A DNA stretch of 45,401 nt from Imperialibacter sp. EC-SDR9. Its GTDB lineage: Bacteria; Bacteroidota; Bacteroidia; Cytophagales; Cyclobacteriaceae. The stretch covers positions 1 through 45,401 of the forward strand of contig NZ_LR701614.1 of the NCBI RefSeq assembly GCF_902498805.1. The letters run 5' to 3'. The notes under the pieces were generated by a model, which saw only the letters and a list, made by a program, of their open reading frames with translations, was not told the DNA's origin and made no database searches. This document shows, one piece after another, positions 31,787-45,401 of the stretch. The number at the start of each line of letters is the position of its first letter. The first letter of the stretch is position 1. A program made the translations under genes and the position numbers.

Positions 31787-32206
31787 TTACAGCCGTTTAG
31801 CGTCTGTTAGGATGAAGCTAAGCTGATACACATCATCATCGTTTAGCTTGAGCGTGCCTTCAAAAGTTAGTTCATCATCCATTTTTAGCCCTTCCAACTT
31901 CTCGGTTGGAAATATCATCATCACCGACTCAGGCCCTGCTTCGCCACAAAAAAAACAGGTTGCCATAGGGTATCTTGACAGTACAATTCCCTTAGGTGAA
32001 AGATCAATGGGAAGGTAATAGCCTTTGATAATATATTTCTTCCCGTCCATTTGAAGCAGCCCATCATCAAATTGGGGGATATAGAACGACGCTTTCTCTT
32101 CATCTATATACTTACTTTCAAATCTCACCCCTTCGAAGACTTTCCAGAGGCTTGGACTCTGAAGCGGCGACACAAAAAGGGCAAAGCCCAAAACTAGCTG
32201 CAACAT
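31787..32206 (-). CDS. DUF3299-like exported protein
   Basis: This 139-residue protein has a short hydrophobic N terminus (probable signal, about residues 1-17). Its core resembles DUF3299: GYYLPIDLSPKGIVLSRYPMATCFFCGEAGPESVMMIF (split here as GYYLPIDLSP and CFFCGEAGPESV, about 62-97) followed by FEGTLKLNDDDVYQLSF. The CxxC pair could be redox-active or bind metal. In other bacteria such proteins are found near ABC export genes, and here the ABC ATPase gene is just upstream, but a terminator at 32275 separates them. Family assignment is fairly good; function is unknown. Confidence 0.72.
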   Translation of the reverse strand: MLQLVLGFALFVSPLQSPSLWKVFEGVRFESKYIDEEKASFYIPQFDDGLLQMDGKKYIIKGYYLPIDLSPKGIVLSRYPMATCFFCGEAGPESVMMIFPTEKLEGLKMDDELTFEGTLKLNDDDVYQLSFILTDAKRL

Positions 32207-32329: not shown

Positions 32330-33043
32330 TTATACCATTGCTTTGTCCTTGGCATTGATGTTTTCAGAAACGATCTGGCCGTCGAACAAGTGGATGATTC
32401 TGTGTGCATATTCTGCGTCGATAGGAGAGTGAGTCACCATAATCACTGTAGTTCCTCCCTCGTTCAAGTCGCTCAGCAAGTTCATAACTTCCTGGCCATT
32501 GGCAGAGTCAAGGTTACCAGTAGGCTCATCCGCAAGAATCAGCTTAGGCTTGGCCACCACCGCTCTCGAAATCGCCACACGCTGCTGCTGACCACCCGAA
32601 AGTTGCTGTGGGAAGTGGTTCTTTCTGTGCATGATCTTCATCGACTCCATTACCTCCTCTACCCTCTTCTTGCGCTCAGCCGCAGAATACTTCAAGTAGA
32701 TAAGTGGAAGTTCAATGTTTTCATACACTGTGAGTTCGTCAATCAGGTTAAAGCTCTGGAATACAAATCCAATATTAGCTTTTCTCAAATCCGCTCTCTG
32801 GCGTTCCGAGTGTTTCGAAATTTCCTGGCCCATGAAGTGGAAATCGCCTTCAGACGGGTTGTCAAGCAGGCCGATGATATTAAGCAAAGTTGACTTGCCG
32901 CAACCAGACGGCCCCATGATAGCTACAAATTCGCTCTCACGCACTTCAAGATTAACTCCAGCTAAGGCAGTTGTTTCAATCTCATCTGTGTAGTAGAACT
33001 TCTTCAGTCCTACTGTTTTAATGACAGTTTTAGCATTTTCCAT
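32330..33043 (-). CDS. ABC transporter ATP-binding protein (MacB/LolD type)
   Basis: This 237-residue ATPase is of the MacB/LolD/FtsE branch, which powers extrusion of lipoproteins, peptides or toxins rather than classical import. Motifs: Walker A GPSGCGKST near residue 45, Q-loop FQSFNL near 93, signature LSGGQQQR near 142, Walker B LILADEPTGNLD near 160, and H-loop MVTHSPIDA near 205. It is 26 bp downstream of the HlyD-type gene and is probably translated from the same mRNA. No MacB-like permease is in the window, so the partner must be encoded elsewhere. Confidence 0.93.
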   Translation of the reverse strand: MENAKTVIKTVGLKKFYYTDEIETTALAGVNLEVRESEFVAIMGPSGCGKSTLLNIIGLLDNPSEGDFHFMGQEISKHSERQRADLRKANIGFVFQSFNLIDELTVYENIELPLIYLKYSAAERKKRVEEVMESMKIMHRKNHFPQQLSGGQQQRVAISRAVVAKPKLILADEPTGNLDSANGQEVMNLLSDLNEGGTTVIMVTHSPIDAEYAHRIIHLFDGQIVSENINAKDKAMV

Positions 33044-33069: not shown

Positions 33070-34320
33070 TTATTTAAAAACTAATCGATCCTTATCCTGA
33101 TAACCCTCGTAGGAAGAGACAACAACTTTCTCTCCTGGTTGCAGCCCTTCTAACACTTCATAAAACCGTGGGTTCTGACGTCCCAATCTAATGTTCCTGC
33201 GTGTCGCAAAATCGCCGCTCGCATCCACTACAAATATCCAATTGCCACCTGTAGTCTGATAAAAGCTTCCCCTTGGAATCTGTATCGCCTGAATATTCTC
33301 GCTCAACTGGAGACGTATCTGAAGCGTTTGACCTCTTCTGATTCCATCCGGAACGTCTCCCTCAAAATACATGTCCACCTCAAACAGGCCATTTCGTACT
33401 TCTCCGTAGTTCTTCATGATTGTGAGCTCATAAGTCCCTCCCGCAAAGTCGAATGTACCCTTCAACCCTTCGTATATTCTGGCCAGGTAGTGCTCATCAA
33501 TTTGCGCTCTCACCTTAAACCCATTCGTATCATCAATCTGGCCAATGTTTTGACCGGGAGAAATCGACTCACCCACTTCGCCGTTCACAGTCGACAAACG
33601 CCCCGAAATAGGAGCCCTTATGTACAAATTCTCCAGGTTCTGGCGAATCATGTTAAGGTTGTTGTTTGTTCTCTGTAGCAATGCCTGAGAGTTGTTGATA
33701 GTGTTTTCAGCATTCAAAGAGTCTACCTTTTGAGACTTTACTTCAACAACCCTTGTTTTAATCAGCCTTTCATAGTCAAGCTTAGCTCTCAAAAACTCTT
33801 GTTCAGAAATTACCTTCTCCTTGAAAAGCTGCTCGCTTCTCTCGTAAAGATCCTTCGCCTGAGCAATCTGGTAGTCGAGCGTAATCAGCGTGCGCTGTAG
33901 CTGGAACAAACTCTGCTGCATCTGCAACCTCGTGTTTTGAAGCTGGTTCATCAAGATGAACGCCTGGGTTTCCTCCCTTATGAAGCTTTGCAACAAATTA
34001 TTGTTAGTGAGCTTTAAAATAGTGTCCCCTTTTTCTACCTGAATACCACCCTCGTAGAATTTCTTCTCAATAATACCGCCTTCTATCGCATCCAATCGGA
34101 TAGTCTTGATAGGCATGACCTGTCCATCGACAGGGATAAACTCCCTGAATTCACCATTTTGTACTTCAGCTACATTGATTTTATCAACAGACACATTGAG
34201 CTTGGAGCTTCGGTCTGCAAAAACAAAACTGTATATAACAAAAAGTACAAATGCGCCACTAAGCCCATAAATGGCGACTTTCTTGAGAGTAAATGTTTTC
34301 TTTTTAATTACACGATCCAT
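33070..34320 (-). CDS. HlyD/MacA-family periplasmic adaptor protein
   Basis: This 416-residue adaptor has one N-terminal membrane anchor (about residues 12-34, KVAIYGLSGAFVLFVIYSFVF). A biotinyl-lipoyl part follows (GIIEKKFYEGGIQVEKGDTILKL near 81-103), then a long coiled coil (about 110-225; LQMQQSLFQLQRTLITLDYQIAQ). The second lipoyl half (LYIRAPISGRLSTVNGEVGESISPGQNIGQI near 236) and beta-barrel regions come after. Adaptors of this type link an inner-membrane ABC transporter to an outer-membrane channel. It heads the unit with the ABC ATPase. A sigma-54-like site stands 33 bp before its ATG. Confidence 0.92.
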   Translation of the reverse strand: MDRVIKKKTFTLKKVAIYGLSGAFVLFVIYSFVFADRSSKLNVSVDKINVAEVQNGEFREFIPVDGQVMPIKTIRLDAIEGGIIEKKFYEGGIQVEKGDTILKLTNNNLLQSFIREETQAFILMNQLQNTRLQMQQSLFQLQRTLITLDYQIAQAKDLYERSEQLFKEKVISEQEFLRAKLDYERLIKTRVVEVKSQKVDSLNAENTINNSQALLQRTNNNLNMIRQNLENLYIRAPISGRLSTVNGEVGESISPGQNIGQIDDTNGFKVRAQIDEHYLARIYEGLKGTFDFAGGTYELTIMKNYGEVRNGLFEVDMYFEGDVPDGIRRGQTLQIRLQLSENIQAIQIPRGSFYQTTGGNWIFVVDASGDFATRRNIRLGRQNPRFYEVLEGLQPGEKVVVSSYEGYQDKDRLVFK

Positions 34321-34352: not shown

Positions 34353-34368
34353 TCCAACAAAAATGCCA
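34353..34368 (-). promoter_or_regulatory. Possible sigma-54 promoter for the hlyD-ABC unit
   Basis: On the minus strand TGGCAT, five bases, then TTGGA resembles the -24/-12 form TGGCAC-N5-TTGCW. The -24 GG is kept, but the -12 GC is GG, so the match is imperfect. Initiation would fall near 34342, 22 bases before the ATG. A second TGGCAC at about 34342-34347 has no -12 element in register. Confidence 0.35.
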
Positions 34369-34502
34369 CAAATTACAAATCGCTGATTATTAATCAATTA
34401 CGGTTTGATTGGTTTTGCGAAATAGTTCGATTATGTACACTTAGGAGCGGTTGGTGTTCGCTATTGAGCAAAAGGAAAGACCTGAAGAACAGGCAAAAAA
34501 AA

Positions 34503-34526
34503 AGATTCAGGCATTCGCCTGAATCT
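34503..34526. promoter_or_regulatory. Perfect 10-4-10 dyad between divergent genes
   Basis: AGATTCAGGC (34503-34512), loop ATTC, and GCCTGAATCT (34517-34526) form a perfect dyad. On the minus strand it is followed by nine T residues, like an intrinsic terminator, yet no leftward gene ends here: the nearest, the FKBP gene, already has a terminator at 35336-35359. It may be an enhancer site for an NtrC-type activator serving sigma-54 promoters on both sides, or the end of an unannotated small RNA. Confidence 0.5.
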
Positions 34527-34833
34527 CAAGGTCAAAAACTCAAAATAAAAAGGACTAATCAAATCTTAATCCACAACAACACACGAATATAAAACAATCG
34601 GCTCTAAAATAAAATTCCTTCCCTCTAAATTTTGAATTTTTAGTCGTGTGGCTTTTGGTCATTTCCCATATAGCCTTTGCGCCACAAATAACGGTAGGGC
34701 TGGCCAGGCATTGGCAAGAGGCCTCTAGACAAGGTGTGCAAGTGCAAACATTTCTTCAAAAAAGCTTCCAAATAATCGCTCAGAGGTCCTTACGTTAAAA
34801 AAAGGTGCGAAAACTGAGGGTTGTTGAGGATAC

Positions 34834-34849
34834 TGGCAGTATTTTTGCC
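34834..34849 (+). promoter_or_regulatory. Sigma-54 (-24/-12) promoter
   Basis: TGGCAG, five bases (TATTT), then TTGCC match the consensus TGGCAC-N5-TTGCW, with both invariant pairs (GG at -24, GC at -12) in the correct register. The start site would be near 34860, 18 bases before the ATG at 34878. A sigma-54 activator gene lies 1.2 kb downstream on the same strand. Confidence 0.7.
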
Positions 34850-34877
34850 ACTGTATTGCGAAAGCACACTACTTTAT

Positions 34878-35330
34878 ATGAAACTACGGATATCAAAACG
34901 ATTCATTTTACTACTGGGATTTGTCCTGGCACTACTGGCTATTTATTCAGGTGGCCTGGTGACGGCCCAACCAATGCAGGATCAAAATGGTGCCGCTAGT
35001 TTAGACTCTGGTCGGGTTTCTAATAAAGTTCGTTCGCAAATTGTGGAGCAGGCCATCAACCATAAGGGGCTGATTACAGATTCAAGGCTTGACTTTTCGC
35101 TAACCCCTACCGGCAGAAGTGAATTCGAATTGGCCTTCGAAAACCCCTATAAATACCCGGTTAAGATCAAGATTTATAATATCATAGGCAATCTAATAGC
35201 TGAAGAAGAAGCAAAACCAGGCGCTTCGTTTACCAAGAAGTACAACTTTTCTGACGAGAAAATGAGGCTATTTGTTGTTGAGGTGGGCAACCAGAAGCAC
35301 AACCTTACCAAGAAGGTGACTACTATATAA
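34878..35330 (+). CDS. Small exported protein resembling a stand-alone T9SS-type C-terminal domain
   Basis: This 150-residue product has a signal peptide (MKLRISKRFILLLGFVLALLAIYS, cleavage probably near VTAQ). A short linker follows, then a C-terminal beta domain (about residues 72-150). The order of strands in FELAFENPYKYPVKIKIYNIIGNLIAEE, YNFSDEKMRLFVVEVG and LTKKVTTI matches type A T9SS sorting domains (IYNxxGxxV ... G-Y-x-V-x-V ... KxKxxV). The NPxxG and GxY residues are replaced, and no cargo domain is attached. ATG at 34878 is chosen because the sigma-54 promoter at 34834 ends before it. It may be a regulated envelope protein or a decoy-like sorting domain; function is unknown. Confidence 0.72.
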   Translation: MKLRISKRFILLLGFVLALLAIYSGGLVTAQPMQDQNGAASLDSGRVSNKVRSQIVEQAINHKGLITDSRLDFSLTPTGRSEFELAFENPYKYPVKIKIYNIIGNLIAEEEAKPGASFTKKYNFSDEKMRLFVVEVGNQKHNLTKKVTTI

Positions 35331-35335
35331 AAAAC

Positions 35336-35359
35336 AAGCCCCGCATTTCTACAGGGCTT
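35336..35359 (-). terminator. Terminator between convergent genes
   Basis: AAGCCC (35336-35341) and GGGCTT (35354-35359) form a stem with a 12-base loop. On the minus strand it is followed by a T-rich run (TTGTTTTTT), so it best fits the end of the FKBP gene transcript. It lies just past the stop of the gene at 34878-35330. Confidence 0.55.
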
Positions 35360-35393
35360 TCATAGATATTAACAATTCAAGTTAAACGGCCAC

Positions 35394-35819
35394 TCAGCCT
35401 ATCTCGACCAATTCTATTTGAAAAGTAAGGTCTTTTCCAGCCAAAGGGTGGTTAGCATCCAACACTATCTTGTCTGGCTCAACAGCAGTAACAACCACAG
35501 GCCGTGATTTGTCTCCATCGTTGATGGCGAGTTGCATTCCAATTTCCGGGTTTATGTCGGCGGGCACCTGGGCTATTGGAACTTCCACCAAAAGCTCGTC
35601 GCTCCTTTCACCATAGGCTTCTTTGCTGGGGATGTTTGCTTCCCTTACTTCACCAAGAGCCATTCCGAGCACGGCTTGTTCAAAACCTGGTATCATTTGC
35701 CCCTGTCCTAAAGTGAAGGCAAGAGGATCACGACCTTCCGAAGAGTCGAACACAGACCCGTCATCCAACTTTCCTGTATAATGTACTTTTACCGGATGTC
35801 CATTTTTTGCTACTGACAT
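35394..35819 (-). CDS. FKBP-type (SlyD-like) peptidyl-prolyl isomerase
   Basis: This 141-residue cytoplasmic protein has an FKBP domain interrupted by an IF (chaperone) insert, as in SlyD: KVHYTGKLDDGSVFDSSEGRDPLAFTLGQGQMIPGFEQAVLGM (about residues 11-53), an insert near 70-120, and a closing NHPLAGKDLTFQIELVEI. It should assist folding around proline. The His-rich metal tail of E. coli SlyD is absent. It is monocistronic, convergent with the 34878 gene and divergent from the NtrC-like gene. Confidence 0.94.
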   Translation of the reverse strand: MSVAKNGHPVKVHYTGKLDDGSVFDSSEGRDPLAFTLGQGQMIPGFEQAVLGMALGEVREANIPSKEAYGERSDELLVEVPIAQVPADINPEIGMQLAINDGDKSRPVVVTAVEPDKIVLDANHPLAGKDLTFQIELVEIG

Positions 35820-36042
35820 GTCTTCCTTTTTTCTGTTTGCTAATTCTTTATGATTTAATTCAAAGGTATGGAAATATGGTTTTGATGAAAATCTATGCCG
35901 GGTAATGTTATGATTATGGACAGAAAATGTTCATATTCGTACATAAAAATCTCAATAAACCTTCATAACATTTTAATAATCAGCGCCTTTACCTTTGGCA
36001 CAGTACTGGTGATGTATTTAACAGAGCGGATAACTACAACTT

Positions 36043-37428
36043 ATGGAATCAGATAAAGAACTTGGAAAGATATTAATCATTGATGACGACGAAGATGTGC
36101 TGCTTGCAGCCAAAATGCTGCTCAGGAAGCATGCGGAGAATGTGATCATAGAAAAAAACCCAAAGAAAATACCGTTTCTGCTCAACAACGACACCTACGA
36201 CGTGATCCTTCTGGATATGAATTTCAGCAAGGACATAACCAGTGGAAAAGAAGGCTTTTATTGGCTGGAACAAATACTTGAACGGGAACCAACGGCGGTG
36301 GTCATTCTTATCACTGCTTTTGGAGACGTAGAAATGGCTGTGAAGGCGCTCAAAGAAGGGGCAACTGATTTTGTATTGAAGCCATGGCAAAATGAGAAAT
36401 TAATTGCTACACTTTCTTCAGCAGCCAAACTGAAAAAATCTAGAAATGAAGTTACACAGCTAAAGCAGGCCAAGCAGGCGCTCGAAGAAGGAATAAATCA
36501 GCCTTTCAAGGACATTATCGGCGAAAGCGATGCCATCAAGCAGGTATTCAATATCATCGACAAAGTAGCCCAAACTGATGCCAATGTGTTGATTTTAGGA
36601 GAAAACGGCACAGGCAAAGAACTTATCGCCCGGGCACTCCACCAAAAGTCGCTGAGAAAAGACAAGGTGTTTATCGGGGTTGACATGGGCGCCATTACGG
36701 AAACGCTGTTTGAGAGTGAGCTTTTTGGTCACAAAAAAGGTGCTTTCACCGATGCCAAAGACGACAGAGCCGGGAGGTTTGAGGCTGCCAATGGGGGCTC
36801 TCTGTTCCTGGATGAAATTGGAAACCTCAGCATGCAACTTCAGAGCAAGTTGCTCACTGTGTTGCAAAAAAGAGAAGTGGTAAGGCTGGGAACCAACAAA
36901 TCTGTCCCTGTGGACATCCGCCTGATCAGTGCCACAAATATGCCAATCTACGAAATGGTGGAAGAAAGTACCTTTCGCCAAGACTTGCTTTATCGGATCA
37001 ATACTGTTGAAATACACCTCCCGTCGCTGAGAGAAAGAATGGACGATATTCCGCTGCTTTGCGACCACTTTATCAAGATGTATTGCGGCAAGTATAGGAA
37101 GCCCATCAAAAAAATGTCGCCCATCGCACTCAAGAAGCTACAGAAATATCAGTGGCCCGGTAATATCAGGGAGCTGCAACATGCACTGGAAAGGGCCATT
37201 ATCATGAGCGATTCCAATATGCTGTCGCCAGACGACTTTTTCTTTTTGAATCAGAAAGCTGAGAGCAAAGCAGAAGCTGAGCCTGAAACCTTCAATTTGG
37301 ATGATGTAGAAAAGTCGGTGATTCAAAAGGCCATTAACCGGCACGGGGGTAATATTTCCAAGGCGGCCAAAGAACTTGGATTAACGAGGGCTTCCCTTTA
37401 CAGAAGAATGGAGAAGCATGGCCTTTAA
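36043..37428 (+). CDS. NtrC-family sigma-54-dependent response regulator
   Basis: This 461-residue transcription activator acts with RNA polymerase carrying sigma-54. The receiver (about residues 8-125) has acidic Asp14-16, phosphoacceptor Asp58 in VILLDMNF and Lys113 in LKPW. The AAA+ domain (about 157-385) has Walker A GENGTGKE (186-193), Walker B LFLDEIGN, and the sigma-54-contact loop as GAFTDA (233-238) instead of the usual GAFTGA. The C-terminal Fis-type helix-turn-helix (about 420-461) reads NISKAAKELGLTRASLYRRMEKHGL (split: NISKAAKELGL, ASLYRRMEKHG). The histidine kinase gene overlaps its end by 11 bp. Likely targets are the sigma-54 promoters at 34834 and perhaps 34353. Confidence 0.95.
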   Translation: MESDKELGKILIIDDDEDVLLAAKMLLRKHAENVIIEKNPKKIPFLLNNDTYDVILLDMNFSKDITSGKEGFYWLEQILEREPTAVVILITAFGDVEMAVKALKEGATDFVLKPWQNEKLIATLSSAAKLKKSRNEVTQLKQAKQALEEGINQPFKDIIGESDAIKQVFNIIDKVAQTDANVLILGENGTGKELIARALHQKSLRKDKVFIGVDMGAITETLFESELFGHKKGAFTDAKDDRAGRFEAANGGSLFLDEIGNLSMQLQSKLLTVLQKREVVRLGTNKSVPVDIRLISATNMPIYEMVEESTFRQDLLYRINTVEIHLPSLRERMDDIPLLCDHFIKMYCGKYRKPIKKMSPIALKKLQKYQWPGNIRELQHALERAIIMSDSNMLSPDDFFFLNQKAESKAEAEPETFNLDDVEKSVIQKAINRHGGNISKAAKELGLTRASLYRRMEKHGL

Positions 37429-38788
37429 AAGCTTCAAAGCTGCTTTGATTATTAGGGTTGTGCTGCTGATTGGCTCAATCTTCCTGCTTACACACTTGTA
37501 TTACAACGATTCCTATGACCTAACGAAAGCGTTGGTGATCGGAATGATTGGCTATCAGGTATATGCCCTTTTCCACTATCTGGATAAGTCAAACAGGGAG
37601 ATTGCCAACTTTCTCAGTTCCATCCAATACGACGACTTCTCCAACACCTATACATACAGAAACACTGGTGGATCCATTGACTTGCTTTATGAGCAATTCA
37701 ATAATGTTATGAAGAAGTTCAGGGACATCAGAGCCGAAAAGGAAGCGCAGTATACTTATTACAAAACCATTGTCCAGCACGTGGGCATTGGCATCATCAC
37801 GTTTGACAAACATGGCGAAATTCAAATGCTCAATACCGCCGCCAAAAACCTGCTACAGATCGGGCAAATTAAAAACATTTCGAACCTGAAAAGCATCAGC
37901 CAGGTACTTGTTGACGGGTTTTTTATGTTAAAAACAGGTGGCAGAGACCTGATAAAAATCGAGCGCAATGGGGAGGAAGTACAGTTGGCAATTTATGCCA
38001 TAGAGCTAACCATGCGGGGAGAGGAGTTCAAGCTTATTTCTCTTCAGAACATCAAAAGTGAGTTGGAAGAAAAGGAAATGGAGGCGTGGCAGAACCTGAT
38101 TAGGGTGCTGACGCACGAAATAATGAACAGCGTGACACCTATTTCCTCACTGGCAGGCACCGTAGAGTCGGAGCTTGGCCTACAGTTAAAAAATGGTGCC
38201 GAGGTCAATAAAATTACCAATGAAGAAATTCAGGACTTGTACCTGGCTGTGCAAACCATTCACCGGAGAAGTGACAGCCTGATCAAGTTTGTCTCTGATT
38301 TCAGAAACCTGACGAGGCTCACCATGCCCAAGCTGGCCCAAACCAAGGTGCGTGACCTACTCGACCATGTTCTCATGCTTTTAAAATATGAAATAGAGCG
38401 GGGAGAAATTAAGCTCACTTACAAGGTAGAACCCAAGAACCTTGAAGTGCTGGTGGACAAAGAACAAATTGAGCAGGTATTGATCAACCTGGTGAAAAAT
38501 GCTATTCAAGCGCTGGAGGAAAACGATGAAATGGACAAGGAAAAACTTTTGATCATTTCGGCCAACGGACTTGAAAACAACAGCGTGTCAATTTCCATTA
38601 CCGATAATGGCCCCGGCATCGAAGAAGATGCGCTCAAAAAGATTTTTATCCCCTTCTTTACTACCAAGAAAAGTGGTTCCGGCATTGGTTTAAGCTTGTC
38701 AAAACAGATCATGAGGCAGCACAAGGGGTCGATCTCAGTGAAGTCCGTCATCAACCAGGGCACTGAGTTTGTGCTGAGGTTTAGCTAA
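37418..38788 (+). CDS. Sensor histidine kinase (NtrB/AtoS-like)
   Basis: This 456-residue kinase pairs with the upstream regulator. Two N-terminal membrane helices (about residues 9-28 and 34-50) are joined by a short loop, so there is no sizeable periplasmic sensor. A PAS-like region follows (about 115-215; VGIGIITFDKHGEIQMLN). The H box has His233 in LTHEIMNSVTP; N box QVLINLVKNAIQAL near 358; G1 DNGPGIEEDA near 397; G2 GSGIGLSLSKQ near 425. The stimulus is probably membrane or cytoplasmic. The start overlaps the regulator gene by 11 bp, indicating translational coupling. Confidence 0.94.
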   Translation: MAFKSFKAALIIRVVLLIGSIFLLTHLYYNDSYDLTKALVIGMIGYQVYALFHYLDKSNREIANFLSSIQYDDFSNTYTYRNTGGSIDLLYEQFNNVMKKFRDIRAEKEAQYTYYKTIVQHVGIGIITFDKHGEIQMLNTAAKNLLQIGQIKNISNLKSISQVLVDGFFMLKTGGRDLIKIERNGEEVQLAIYAIELTMRGEEFKLISLQNIKSELEEKEMEAWQNLIRVLTHEIMNSVTPISSLAGTVESELGLQLKNGAEVNKITNEEIQDLYLAVQTIHRRSDSLIKFVSDFRNLTRLTMPKLAQTKVRDLLDHVLMLLKYEIERGEIKLTYKVEPKNLEVLVDKEQIEQVLINLVKNAIQALEENDEMDKEKLLIISANGLENNSVSISITDNGPGIEEDALKKIFIPFFTTKKSGSGIGLSLSKQIMRQHKGSISVKSVINQGTEFVLRFS

Positions 38789-38857: not shown

Positions 38858-39118
38858 ATGGGAAGCACACTGGAGACCGTACGTTCTATTTTAGCTGACA
38901 AGCTGGCCTGCCCGTTGTCGAAAGTAACGCCTGATGCATCTTTCTATAAAGACCTTGGGATTGACTCGCTGGACTATGCGGAGCTGGTAATGGAACTGGA
39001 AAGAGAGTTTGATATTACCATTCCCAGTTCAGAAGCCTCAAGAATCACCACCGTTAGCCAGGTAATTGACTACATCAATCGCCGGATCAAGGCCTGCAAA
39101 GGGCTCTCAAATTATTGA
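38858..39118 (+). CDS. Acyl carrier protein
   Basis: This 86-residue ACP-fold protein carries the phosphopantetheine attachment Ser37 in DLGIDSLDYAELVMELE; acidic residues cluster in the following helix as usual. The primary fatty-acid ACP is normally encoded beside fabF, which is not here, so this looks like a specialised ACP. It precedes an LpxH-like phosphoesterase and a glycosyltransferase, suggesting a dedicated acylated product. ATG at 38858 gives the normal N terminus. Confidence 0.92.
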   Translation: MGSTLETVRSILADKLACPLSKVTPDASFYKDLGIDSLDYAELVMELEREFDITIPSSEASRITTVSQVIDYINRRIKACKGLSNY

Positions 39119-42960: not shown

Positions 42961-45401
42961 TTACCTTTTCACAATTCTCCTGACTGCTTCGTTTCCCTTG
43001 CTTTGCACTCTAAGTAAGTAGATTCCCTTGTTAAAGTGAGCCATTTGAAGTGACAACAACGTTAGGCCGGCCTTAAGAGCATAATACTTTTCGGAAAACA
43101 TCGGCTGACCCGTCATGCTTAACACGGTAACTTCGGCATCACCTGCTTCTGGGAGAATCAGCTCAAATGTAAGACGGTCATCCACGGGGTTAGGGTATGG
43201 GTTGTTCACAAGAAACCCTTCAGTAAATGAAAGGCAATTTGAATTGTCCTGAGGTGAAAATTCAAACTCTCCGTCCTTTAGAATGGGCACAAGCTTAATA
43301 CATACCTTTTCCACAGGGTTGTTGGCAATCACCAACTCAAATTGTAAAGAATGAGAAACTGACTTGCCCGGCGCTACAGTTCCGTTGTACTTTTCTGAAA
43401 TGGTGACCCGGTCATCAACTACTATTTCGATGGGAAAGTTCGTCTGCGCTATACTGCCTCGATTGGCAATATTCAGAATAAATCTAAGCTTCCCTTCTGT
43501 GTCGGTGTAGTTAACCGACCGAAGTTGCAGGTCTACTTTTGGAAGAGCAACAGTGACAACAGTGCTGGTTGTGTCGGAGCAACCAAACTCATTATAGGCG
43601 ACGAGGCTTACCAAATAGTCTCCCTCTTTATCAAACACCCGACTGATGTCCTGCTCGTTGCTAACAGAGGCGACACCGTCACCGACGAACCAGGAATAAG
43701 CCGTCGCTCCATTTGATTCATTTGTAAAATTAACTGTCACCGGTAGCTGACCTACAGACAATGAATGACTGAAGGCTGCCACAGGTGAGTTATTAATTGT
43801 CACATTCTTGCTGATGGATATTTCACACCCTTTCTCAGTCTTTAGGAACAAGCTCACGTTATAGTTCCCTGCTTGTTTGAACTGATAGTAGGCCTTGGGG
43901 CCGTTTGCAGATGCCTGGCCAGCGAAATCCCATTTCCTGCTGATAATGGGGTCATCAGGACTGGTGCTTAAGTCGTTGAACTCCGTTAGTTCGTTGACAC
44001 AAGCAGAAGTGAATCCGAAATCAATTGATGGCAATTCATTGACCTGCACGGTCTTTGTTAATGAAATGGTGCACAGGTTTTTCGTGGTTATCTGTAGCGT
44101 AACGTCGTAGCTTCCGGGATTTTCGAAAACCTCATTGACGGTTGGGGCGCTATAGAACTGATTATTGATACTCCACAAGCGGTCAACAATTGGATTGTCG
44201 GCGTCGCTGGAAGACTGGTCAACAAATGTTGTGGCCTGTCCCTCGCAACCAGTGTTGACTAAAAATGCGACCGTTGGTGATGGCAGCACATCAATTTCTC
44301 TGGTAAGTATTTTGGAACACCCGTAGTTCGAGCTAACAGACAGCGTAACAGTATATTTTCCCGCAGCTGGGAATTCAAAGATCGGATTCCGTTCATTGGA
44401 CGTACCAAGACCCGCAAAATCCCAGCTCCATTCCGTGATATTGGCATTTTCGGCAGTGCTTTGATCAGTGAACTGCACCGCTGCTCCGCTACAAGCCAAG
44501 TCATGTTTGAAGTCAGGCGTAGGTATCGCACTAATCGCTACTTTCTCTGTAAGTGTGGTTTCGCAGCCTAAATCATTGTTTACTGTGAGGCTCACCTGAT
44601 ACTCGCCGATGGTTTCAAAAAAAGTTTCGGGGTCTTTTACTATGCTGGTATATCCGTTGCCAAAATCCCACGAATATCCAGTGATTCCTTCTCCAGTAGT
44701 TGTGTTATTGAATTGCGTGGTAGGGCTGATGCAATTGCTGCCCACGGTAAATCCCACTACCGGCCCCTCCAATAGGTTTATTGTTTTGCTCACAGAAGCT
44801 TCGCAACCCGGTATGCCAACGGTTAGTGTAATGATTTTTTCTCCAGCGTTAACAAATGCATAGGTGGTGTCTTTTCCCAGAATGGTGGCCTCACCATTGA
44901 AGTCCCACGTCCAGGTGACGAGGCTGTCGGGTGGGAGATTGGGAGTCAGGTCTTTGAAAGAAAGTGTGTTATTGCTACACAGACCCCCTTTGTAGGTAAA
45001 GCTAAAATCAGGCTCGCTGATGTCGTAAATGCCGATGGTTTGCCGTGATGTGTTGGAGCAGCCTCCATCGTTTTGCACTGTCAGAGTAACTTCGTAGTCC
45101 CCCGCTGAAGAATATTGAAAGGTTGGGTTAGGATCGGCCGAGTCTTCAAGCCCGTCGCCGTCGAAGTCCCAGGAATAAGTGGCGATGTCGCCGGATAGGT
45201 TGGTGGAGGTGAAGGTGGTGAGCGCACCCACACATTGATTGATTGTACTAAAATCAATATCAGGAGCCTGTGAACTCTGAACTGTTACTTCCTGCGAGGC
45301 ATAGTCCGTATTCCCATTAGAGGAGCTTGCCAATAGCTCTACTACATAGCTCCCAGATTCAGTGTAAGTCACACCTTCAGGTTCAAAGGCCGTGGAACTA
45401 T
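42961..45401 (-). CDS. PKD-repeat surface protein with T9SS sorting domain (5' end outside window)
   Basis: The open frame runs off the right edge; at least 812 residues are visible. It holds a partial PKD domain at the edge, seven complete PKD domains of about 80 residues each (signature WDF-x-G and a closing G-x-Y-x-V-x-L-x-V), and a CARDB-like beta domain (about 130 residues after the last PKD). A terminal sorting domain follows (YPNPVDDRLTFELILP, LSMTGQPMFSEKY, KGIYLLRVQSKG), ending RRIVKR. Most PKD units have a conserved Cys pair, suggesting disulfide-stabilised modules. It is probably an exported adhesin or surface-layer-type protein delivered by the type IX system. The true start and any signal peptide are not in the window. 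Confidence 0.93.
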   Translation of the reverse strand, partial: SSTAFEPEGVTYTESGSYVVELLASSSNGNTDYASQEVTVQSSQAPDIDFSTINQCVGALTTFTSTNLSGDIATYSWDFDGDGLEDSADPNPTFQYSSAGDYEVTLTVQNDGGCSNTSRQTIGIYDISEPDFSFTYKGGLCSNNTLSFKDLTPNLPPDSLVTWTWDFNGEATILGKDTTYAFVNAGEKIITLTVGIPGCEASVSKTINLLEGPVVGFTVGSNCISPTTQFNNTTTGEGITGYSWDFGNGYTSIVKDPETFFETIGEYQVSLTVNNDLGCETTLTEKVAISAIPTPDFKHDLACSGAAVQFTDQSTAENANITEWSWDFAGLGTSNERNPIFEFPAAGKYTVTLSVSSNYGCSKILTREIDVLPSPTVAFLVNTGCEGQATTFVDQSSSDADNPIVDRLWSINNQFYSAPTVNEVFENPGSYDVTLQITTKNLCTISLTKTVQVNELPSIDFGFTSACVNELTEFNDLSTSPDDPIISRKWDFAGQASANGPKAYYQFKQAGNYNVSLFLKTEKGCEISISKNVTINNSPVAAFSHSLSVGQLPVTVNFTNESNGATAYSWFVGDGVASVSNEQDISRVFDKEGDYLVSLVAYNEFGCSDTTSTVVTVALPKVDLQLRSVNYTDTEGKLRFILNIANRGSIAQTNFPIEIVVDDRVTISEKYNGTVAPGKSVSHSLQFELVIANNPVEKVCIKLVPILKDGEFEFSPQDNSNCLSFTEGFLVNNPYPNPVDDRLTFELILPEAGDAEVTVLSMTGQPMFSEKYYALKAGLTLLSLQMAHFNKGIYLLRVQSKGNEAVRRIVKR

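Follow-up and report, generated by a model that had tools for sequence, protein, structure and literature searches.

A probable autoregulated sigma-54 two-component system of Imperialibacter linked to an HlyD-ATPase pair and to scattered exporter and membrane-peptide genes

Examination of a 45,401-nt stretch of DNA from Imperialibacter sp. EC-SDR9 (contig NZ_LR701614.1, positions 1 to 45,401), hereafter the window, which is contig C36 of a 6.8-Mb genome (G000), revealed genes for an NtrC-type response regulator and a sensor histidine kinase next to a divergent pair coding for an HlyD-type periplasmic adaptor and an ABC ATPase, with a small exported protein and an FKBP-type isomerase encoded in between (Table 1). 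The identities of the activator, kinase, adaptor and ATPase genes, proposed beforehand from the sequence alone (the original prediction), were confirmed by Pfam and NCBIfam matches. Comparison with related genomes suggests that the regulator and the kinase probably constitute an autoregulated sigma-54 two-component system, which controls the HlyD-ATPase pair together with a scattered regulon of exporter and membrane-peptide genes.

The regulator combines the REC, AAA+ and Fis helix-turn-helix (HTH) domains of NtrC-type activators, and carries a Walker motif and a GAFTDA loop, a variant of GAFTGA. The kinase gene overlaps it by 11 nt. Two N-terminal hydrophobic windows exceed the threshold in 78 of 79 kinase sequences (that of the window included) and, by hydropathy only, 1-15 residues separate the two best of them in all 79; the HE(I/V)xN box is likewise present in 79/79, and matches to PAS families are weak and below cut-off. 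Intramembrane-sensing kinases have two helices and a short linker, and the topology found here fits sensing within the membrane. The closest relatives of the kinase in named records carry labels such as Cyclobacteriaceae, Flammeovirgaceae and similar.

Promoters of the regulator and HlyD-ATPase operons

Matches to the -24/-12 pattern of sigma-54 promoters are common in this DNA. Allowing one mismatch at most, TGGCN7TTGC occurs 71 times in the window, against a mean of 45.05 in shuffled sequences (standard deviation 6.45, largest 66), and its genome contains 100 exact matches to TGGCAN6TTGC against 12 for the reversed pattern. An excess is present in the window, yet most of the 71 matches need no explanation, and such counts were dropped as evidence. 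Because single matches are common and prove little, conservation across relatives was tested. The genome has one rpoN match and 11 matches to the sigma-54 activator domain, seven of which are full-length. Sigma-54 promoters had been described in the original prediction as uncommon in Bacteroidota, a claim that gene content does not support: a search detected rpoN in 294 of 296 Bacteroidota genomes, and the sigma factor is therefore not rare there.

Upstream regions of HlyD genes came from two locus collections, which gave 34 distinct regions (window included) after the removal of 10 duplicates. The element TGGCA-N6-T(T/G)G, with the GG at -24 in a TGGCA context as in sigma-54 promoters, lies shortly before HlyD in 32 of these 34 loci; this is the fair figure, since the alignment was anchored on TGGCA and the 100% in its column table is by construction. 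Relative to TGGCA, TGTACA is found at -70/-71 in 24 of the 32 loci, and the stretch upstream of it holds GAACA in 17 and GNACA in 23. An IHF-like element is located at about -20 (exact in 8/32, at most one mismatch in 21/32; shuffle means 0.18 and 2.89), scored with the IHF consensus WATCARNNNNTTR. The -12 element reads TTGG, TTGA or TTGT, and the site is, by its sequence, sigma-54-like with a variant, unusual -12. The original prediction had noted this site, which is indeed present, but had called it the weaker of two, and had recommended that promoters be compared across genomes. Given the conservation of its -24 element, the HlyD site is the well-supported one, and the ranking of the two sites is reversed.

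A third promoter, before the regulator gene, had been missed. Regulator upstream regions were retained if the protein was >60% identical, aligned from about its first residue onwards and had 150 nt of flanking sequence; of the window and 80 loci, 69 regions remained, 68 of them from relatives. The exact dyad (T/C)GTNC-N6-GNACA lies upstream of 56 of the 69 genes (shuffle mean 0.21, max 2), and TGGCA is found 20-80 nt before 63 of them. The -12 element begins with G in 84% of the 19 closest loci, and the window site reads GT at the position of the -12 GC. In a second set of 20 loci taken by synteny, one of which (L338) repeats L070 of the first set, the dyad is present in 14, TGGCA within 80 nt in all 20, the G in 17 and GC in 9. 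Marinoscillum-type loci have a second -24 in tandem (TGGCATAAGGTGAGCA in L038), which is not conserved across relatives and was set aside.

Upstream activator-type sites accompany both promoters: the half-sites GAACA, TGTTC and TGTACA are common to the regulator and HlyD-ATPase promoters and lie upstream of conserved -24 elements. Because these half-sites are shared, the pump core is probably under the control of the two-component system. On the simplest reading, the regulator probably activates its own operon as well as the HlyD-ATPase operon.

Table 1. Features of the window discussed in the text, and two peptide genes encoded elsewhere in the same genome
Feature	Position	Strand	Remarks
MacB/LolD-type ABC ATPase	32330-33043	-	Pfam/NCBIfam; no permease alongside
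HlyD/MacA-type periplasmic adaptor	33070-34320	-	Pfam/NCBIfam; TIGR01730 above cut-off, DarC below cut-off
Sigma-54-like -24/-12 element of HlyD, TGGCATTTTTGTTGG	34354-34368	-	-12 is TTGG, not TTGC
IHF-like element AATCAGCGATTTG	34376-34388	-	HlyD upstream region
Putative upstream activator half-site TGTACA	34434-34439	-	71 nt upstream of TGGCA
Putative upstream activator half-site GCGAACAC	34454-34461	-	HlyD upstream region
Near-consensus -24/-12-like site TGGCAGTATTTTTGC	34834-34848	+	Contains TATTTTTG (34840-34847), a possible primary-sigma -7 box
Small exported protein	34878-35330	+	150 aa, start ATG 34878; N-terminal hydrophobic helix and stand-alone beta-sandwich like DUF3244 or a type IX secretion C-terminal domain
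FKBP-type peptidyl-prolyl isomerase	35394-35819	-	Between the small-protein and regulator genes in part of the family
Putative upstream activator dyad TGTTCATATTCGTACA	35928-35943	+	Regulator's own promoter
IHF-like element AATCAGCGCCTTT	35978-35990	+	1 mismatch to the IHF consensus
TACCTTTG box	35990-35997	+	Overlapped by the regulator -24/-12-like element
-24/-12-like element of the regulator operon, TGGCACAGTACTGGT	35996-36010	+	TGGCA at 35996; TGGCACAGTACTGG is 35996-36009
NtrC-type response regulator	36043-37428	+	REC, sigma-54 AAA+ with GAFTDA loop, Fis HTH; Pfam/NCBIfam
Sensor histidine kinase	37418-38788	+	Two N-terminal hydrophobic segments, short linker, weak PAS match; Pfam/NCBIfam
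Acyl carrier protein gene	38858-39118	+	Frequent neighbour
Candidate regulon peptide	C12:56212		70 or 77 aa
Candidate regulon peptide	C27:161276		85 aa

Genes preceded by the promoter signature elsewhere

Searches for the promoter signature in related genomes revealed a limited number of further genes. A TGTACA-based pattern gave 43 matches against 4 for its reversed form in 22 genomes, four of the 43 being one congener repeat, and in 8 genomes a looser dyad pattern matched 50 times, its reversed form 16 times. The strict signature gave 13 matches against 0 in 15 related genomes, 8 of which had any match and 7 none. Of the genes behind these 13 matches, five code for one-helix peptides (two being congener copies), two for HlyD, two for one and the same FtsX/MacB permease in two congeners, two for a 131-aa exported protein and one each for an ATPase and a 413-aa protein. 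The loose pattern adds seven permease genes (L184, L189, L206, L209, L217, L220 and, in a congener, L218) and also occurs before an ATPase (L190), an exported 487-aa protein (L197) and a 470-aa lipoprotein-like protein (L208); others of its matches lie before apparently unrelated genes or seem to be intragenic. In the genome of the window, the list comprises the regulator, HlyD, two peptides and a permease at C46:113091. Comparison thus establishes, at the level of sequence, the promoter architecture, its conservation and the genes that it precedes.

The peptides behind the putative regulon promoter form a one-helix family of about 70-93 aa (L216, L214, L306, L309-L311, L315 and L181). An alignment of eight of them, two being congener copies, has four invariant columns in and near the membrane segment, and no convincing Pfam match was found for these membrane peptides. 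In L216, a gene with a PspC domain (Pfam E 5e-23) follows the peptide frame directly. An ABC ATPase other than the HlyD-linked one carries the signature in L190 and L318 (genomes G170 and G148).

The fetched stretches of the window's own genome contain 89 FtsX/MacB-type permease open reading frames (ORFs), many of them in tandem arrays, and eight ATPases of this genome, that of the window included, are related to the window's at E 1e-30. A permease on C46 (L221) has the dyad with a good -24/-12. Another on C2 (L260, at about 460 kb) has the dyad TGTACACTGTCGAACA and an IHF-like AATCAG without a well-spaced -24/-12, and is possibly a weak or decayed regulon member. Other dyads with good -24/-12 sites are found at the permease loci L143 and L244. 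Three sibling NtrC-type regulator-kinase pairs are encoded in the same genome, at C13:31867 (L143), C26:341219 (L144) and C37:161788 (L146); those on C13 and C26 adjoin FtsX/MacB permease arrays, and the C13 array is preceded by a dyad of its own, TTGTTCCAATGTGAAACAA.

Some features of the surroundings were also noted. In 49 of 78 loci an acyl carrier protein gene follows the kinase at a distance of no more than 500 nt, and may connect the system with lipid or acyl metabolism. The window ATPase is followed by a 139-aa predicted exported protein (31787-32206, minus strand), homologues of which lie near another ABC ATPase in L095, L096 and L105. In a congener (G028:C1:4967991-4974618), four TGTACA-pattern matches spaced exactly 2181 bp mark a long tandem repeat about 6-13 kb downstream of the kinase, and the window contig ends in the corresponding area, beside a gene (42961-45372) that by eye is PKD-repeat-like.

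The small exported protein and alternative explanations

In the AlphaFold model of the small exported protein (mean pLDDT 81.2), a helix and a linker of low confidence precede a seven-strand sandwich that is predicted with confidence. Its top Foldseek matches are DUF3244 (4g5a, E 1.1e-4) and substrate tails of the type IX secretion system (T9SS; TMt 0.70-0.73), with general Ig/Fn3-like folds close behind, and a sequence search of the PDB with its family returned one match (E 0.38). It falls short of a T9SS type A C-terminal domain, scoring 21.2 bits against the Por_Secre_tail cut-off of 27, and stands alone, without cargo. The gene was found in 61 of the 196 family genomes searched, and 43 of these have a kinase match at E 1e-110. 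In 32 of the 43 (own genome included) it is located upstream of the kinase on the same strand within 8 kb, and in 31 within 3 kb; in the other 11 it is not so placed. At 14 of the 20 loci read, the FKBP gene still separates it from the regulator gene. The small exported protein is thus a conserved neighbour, whose link to the system appears to lie in conserved position and not in a shared control site. A role as modulator of the kinase would be a guess.

The original prediction had assigned this gene to the site at 34834 as its promoter, and such a near-consensus site is present. Among 44 distinct small-protein upstreams (merged from 51), 28 show GG-N10-G(C/T) between 24 and 60 nt ahead of the start (shuffle mean 2.8, max 8), which favours direct membership of the sigma-54 unit, in a true divergon of this genus where the HlyD half-sites act both ways and drive 34834. 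These half-sites (34434-34461) are some 370-400 bp upstream of the site, within the usual range of enhancers, L024/L032 (genome G042) shows the same divergent layout, and the position upstream of the kinase is conserved. However, the window has no regulator-type dyad within 300 nt upstream of the small-protein gene, a single one of the 44 upstreams (L024, where HlyD is adjacent) has one within that distance, and none occurs in about 500 nt upstream at 20 of 20 relatives, in fetched stretches that do not include HlyD. The congener version of the site, TGGCAGTATTTTTGT, reads GT for the -12 GC, the C being lost, and in both congeners the site encloses TATTTTTG, which fits the primary-sigma -7 box of Bacteroidota, TAnnTTTG; L018, L290 and L291 have the box TACTTTTG instead. 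We regard direct membership as rather unlikely, a local divergon in this genus and in G042 being possible. A chance only slightly short of even is given to the explanation that 34834 is an ordinary primary-sigma promoter, which resembles -24/-12 by accident and leaves the small protein linked by function or position only. The retention of TATTTTTG, the TAnnTTTG box in 9 of the 44 upstreams and the missing dyad agree with it, but the GG at constant spacing is found mostly in regions lacking TAnnTTTG, and by eye there is no clear -33 TTG at the usual distance. The conservation of the 34834 site is less clear than that of the HlyD site, and it is a candidate sigma-54 promoter. The proposal that the two-component system switches on a pump and a surface protein is supported for the pump core, with its shared half-sites and conserved -24, and is not supported as stated for the small protein.

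It could also be supposed that the dyads belong to another regulator, either a repressor or a sibling NtrC-type protein, by which the adjacent pair is regulated without itself regulating. Sibling pairs exist in this genome, and the overlap of the regulator promoter with the TACCTTTG box means that there may be two start sites; yet the dyad precedes this very regulator gene at most loci, and next to the permease array of the C13 sibling the dyad is a different one, so that we consider this supposition very unlikely. A further alternative is that HlyD and its ATPase form a MacAB-like or darobactin-type exporter whose dedicated permease was lost or is distant. The best NCBIfam names of the pair are the darobactin exporter parts DarC and DarD, below their cut-offs, and in L048 a gene that by eye resembles TolC follows the ATPase. 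On the other hand, the pair has no adjacent permease in either the window or L048, the promoter signature recurs before permeases elsewhere, and ATPase homologues behind HlyD in the fetched loci are 81-90% identical in 13 of 14 cases (72% in L111, which is truncated at the locus end), which leaves a plain exporter as a doubtful explanation.

Proposed circuit and comparison with known systems

Several observations weigh against an autoregulated system with a scattered regulon, and all statements on control are inferences from conserved sequence. Among the 63 regulator loci with TGGCA, the -12 begins with G in 31 and has a complete GC in 5; at HlyD a complete GC with N10 spacing is found in 0 of 32, all of which have the G as first base, and two HlyD loci (L120 and L135) have no -24/-12-like element. 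HlyD lies in the fetched kinase flank at only 14 of 57 loci. The adaptor and ATPase of a MacAB-type exporter are present in the window, and no permease or TolC is found beside them there. The genomes used for the signature searches were selected for holding an HlyD relative, and the relatives are not independent. In the genome of the window, the loose dyad pattern is not enriched (4 matches against 5 reversed), and four of six TGTACA-pattern matches are intragenic (C28, C44, C57 and a 133-aa frame at C14). Finally, only 2 of the 89 permease ORFs, those of C46 and C2, have a regulator-type dyad upstream; most permeases therefore lie outside the regulon, and the idea that all of them belong to it was rejected.

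The autoregulated sigma-54 system nonetheless appears the best account of the data. The kinase, which is almost without a periplasmic part, would probably read the state of the membrane or a membrane partner and pass its signal to the NtrC-type regulator. Once phosphorylated, the latter would bind arrays of TGTNC-N6-GNACA half-sites (35928-35943 and 34434-34461), and bending of the DNA at the IHF-like element would bring it to sigma-54 polymerase at a TGGCA -24 with a loose -12. It would then activate its own operon, the HlyD-ATPase operon and a scattered regulon of FtsX/MacB permeases and one-helix membrane peptides of about 70-93 aa, to which small exported proteins, a second ATPase and a PspC gene may be added in some relatives. 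Permeases encoded elsewhere could then share the HlyD-ATPase pair as their adaptor and motor. In this scheme we infer binding by this regulator, the use of sigma-54 and of IHF or HU, activation, the shared use of the ATPase and the nature of the signal.

This genome has dozens of FtsX/MacB-type permeases and few matching ATPases. With a defined regulator, a DNA site and a short list of targets, the control of permeases by sigma-54, so far a matter of statistics, would become a circuit that can be tested; they also suggest that one adaptor-ATPase pair may serve several permeases, and point to a family of presumably induced membrane peptides. A more speculative extension, to which we give a low likelihood, is a phage-shock-like envelope response of Cytophagales: the intramembrane kinase would read membrane stress, its NtrC-type partner would raise an adaptor-ATPase engine powering interchangeable, separately encoded FtsX-type permeases, and the induced one-helix peptides (with PspC in some species) and the DUF3244-like exported protein would feed back on the kinase.

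A 2025 survey predicted that sigma-54 controls FtsX-like permeases (COG0577) in Bacteroidia and other classes, termed this first evidence and also reported sigma-54 promoters before NtrC-type regulator genes (COG2204) (PLoS One, PMC12316311). Sigma factor, phylum and permease family are the same as here; for this unit, the sections of the survey considered here name neither a regulator-kinase pair nor a dyad, an IHF-like element or small membrane peptides, and its main text does not mention HlyD or COG0845. The unit had been presented as little described, which is right only in part: sigma-54 control of FtsX-type permeases was already predicted, whereas the regulator, its dyad and the wiring look new, no paper on them having been found in the open-licence literature. 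A review of the phage-shock protein (Psp) response (PMC11237479) and a 2011 paper on sigma-54 and the bacterial exterior (PMC3162934) provide a wider frame.

Among characterized systems, MacAB-TolC and the darobactin exporter DarCDE have adaptor and ATPase families in common with the unit described here, which has neither a permease nor TolC in its operon and scores below the DarC and DarD cut-offs. ZraSR and AtoSC are NCBIfam relatives of both regulator and kinase, but all scores are far below the equivalog cut-offs and the kinase has no periplasmic sensor domain. Systems of the BceRS-AB type, in which intramembrane-sensing kinases adjoin ABC exporters, resemble it in their two helices with a short linker and in the FtsX-type exporters that are its proposed targets, and differ in that the regulator here is of the NtrC type, the kinase has a weak PAS match and no dedicated transporter adjoins it. 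The Psp response of Enterobacteria relies on sigma-54 with an NtrC-type activator and on small membrane proteins. These traits would recur here, and a PspC gene follows a putative regulon peptide in one relative (L216). In contrast to the PspF-PspA arrangement (PspA was not searched for), the input here would come from a two-component system, and exporter genes would be among its main targets.

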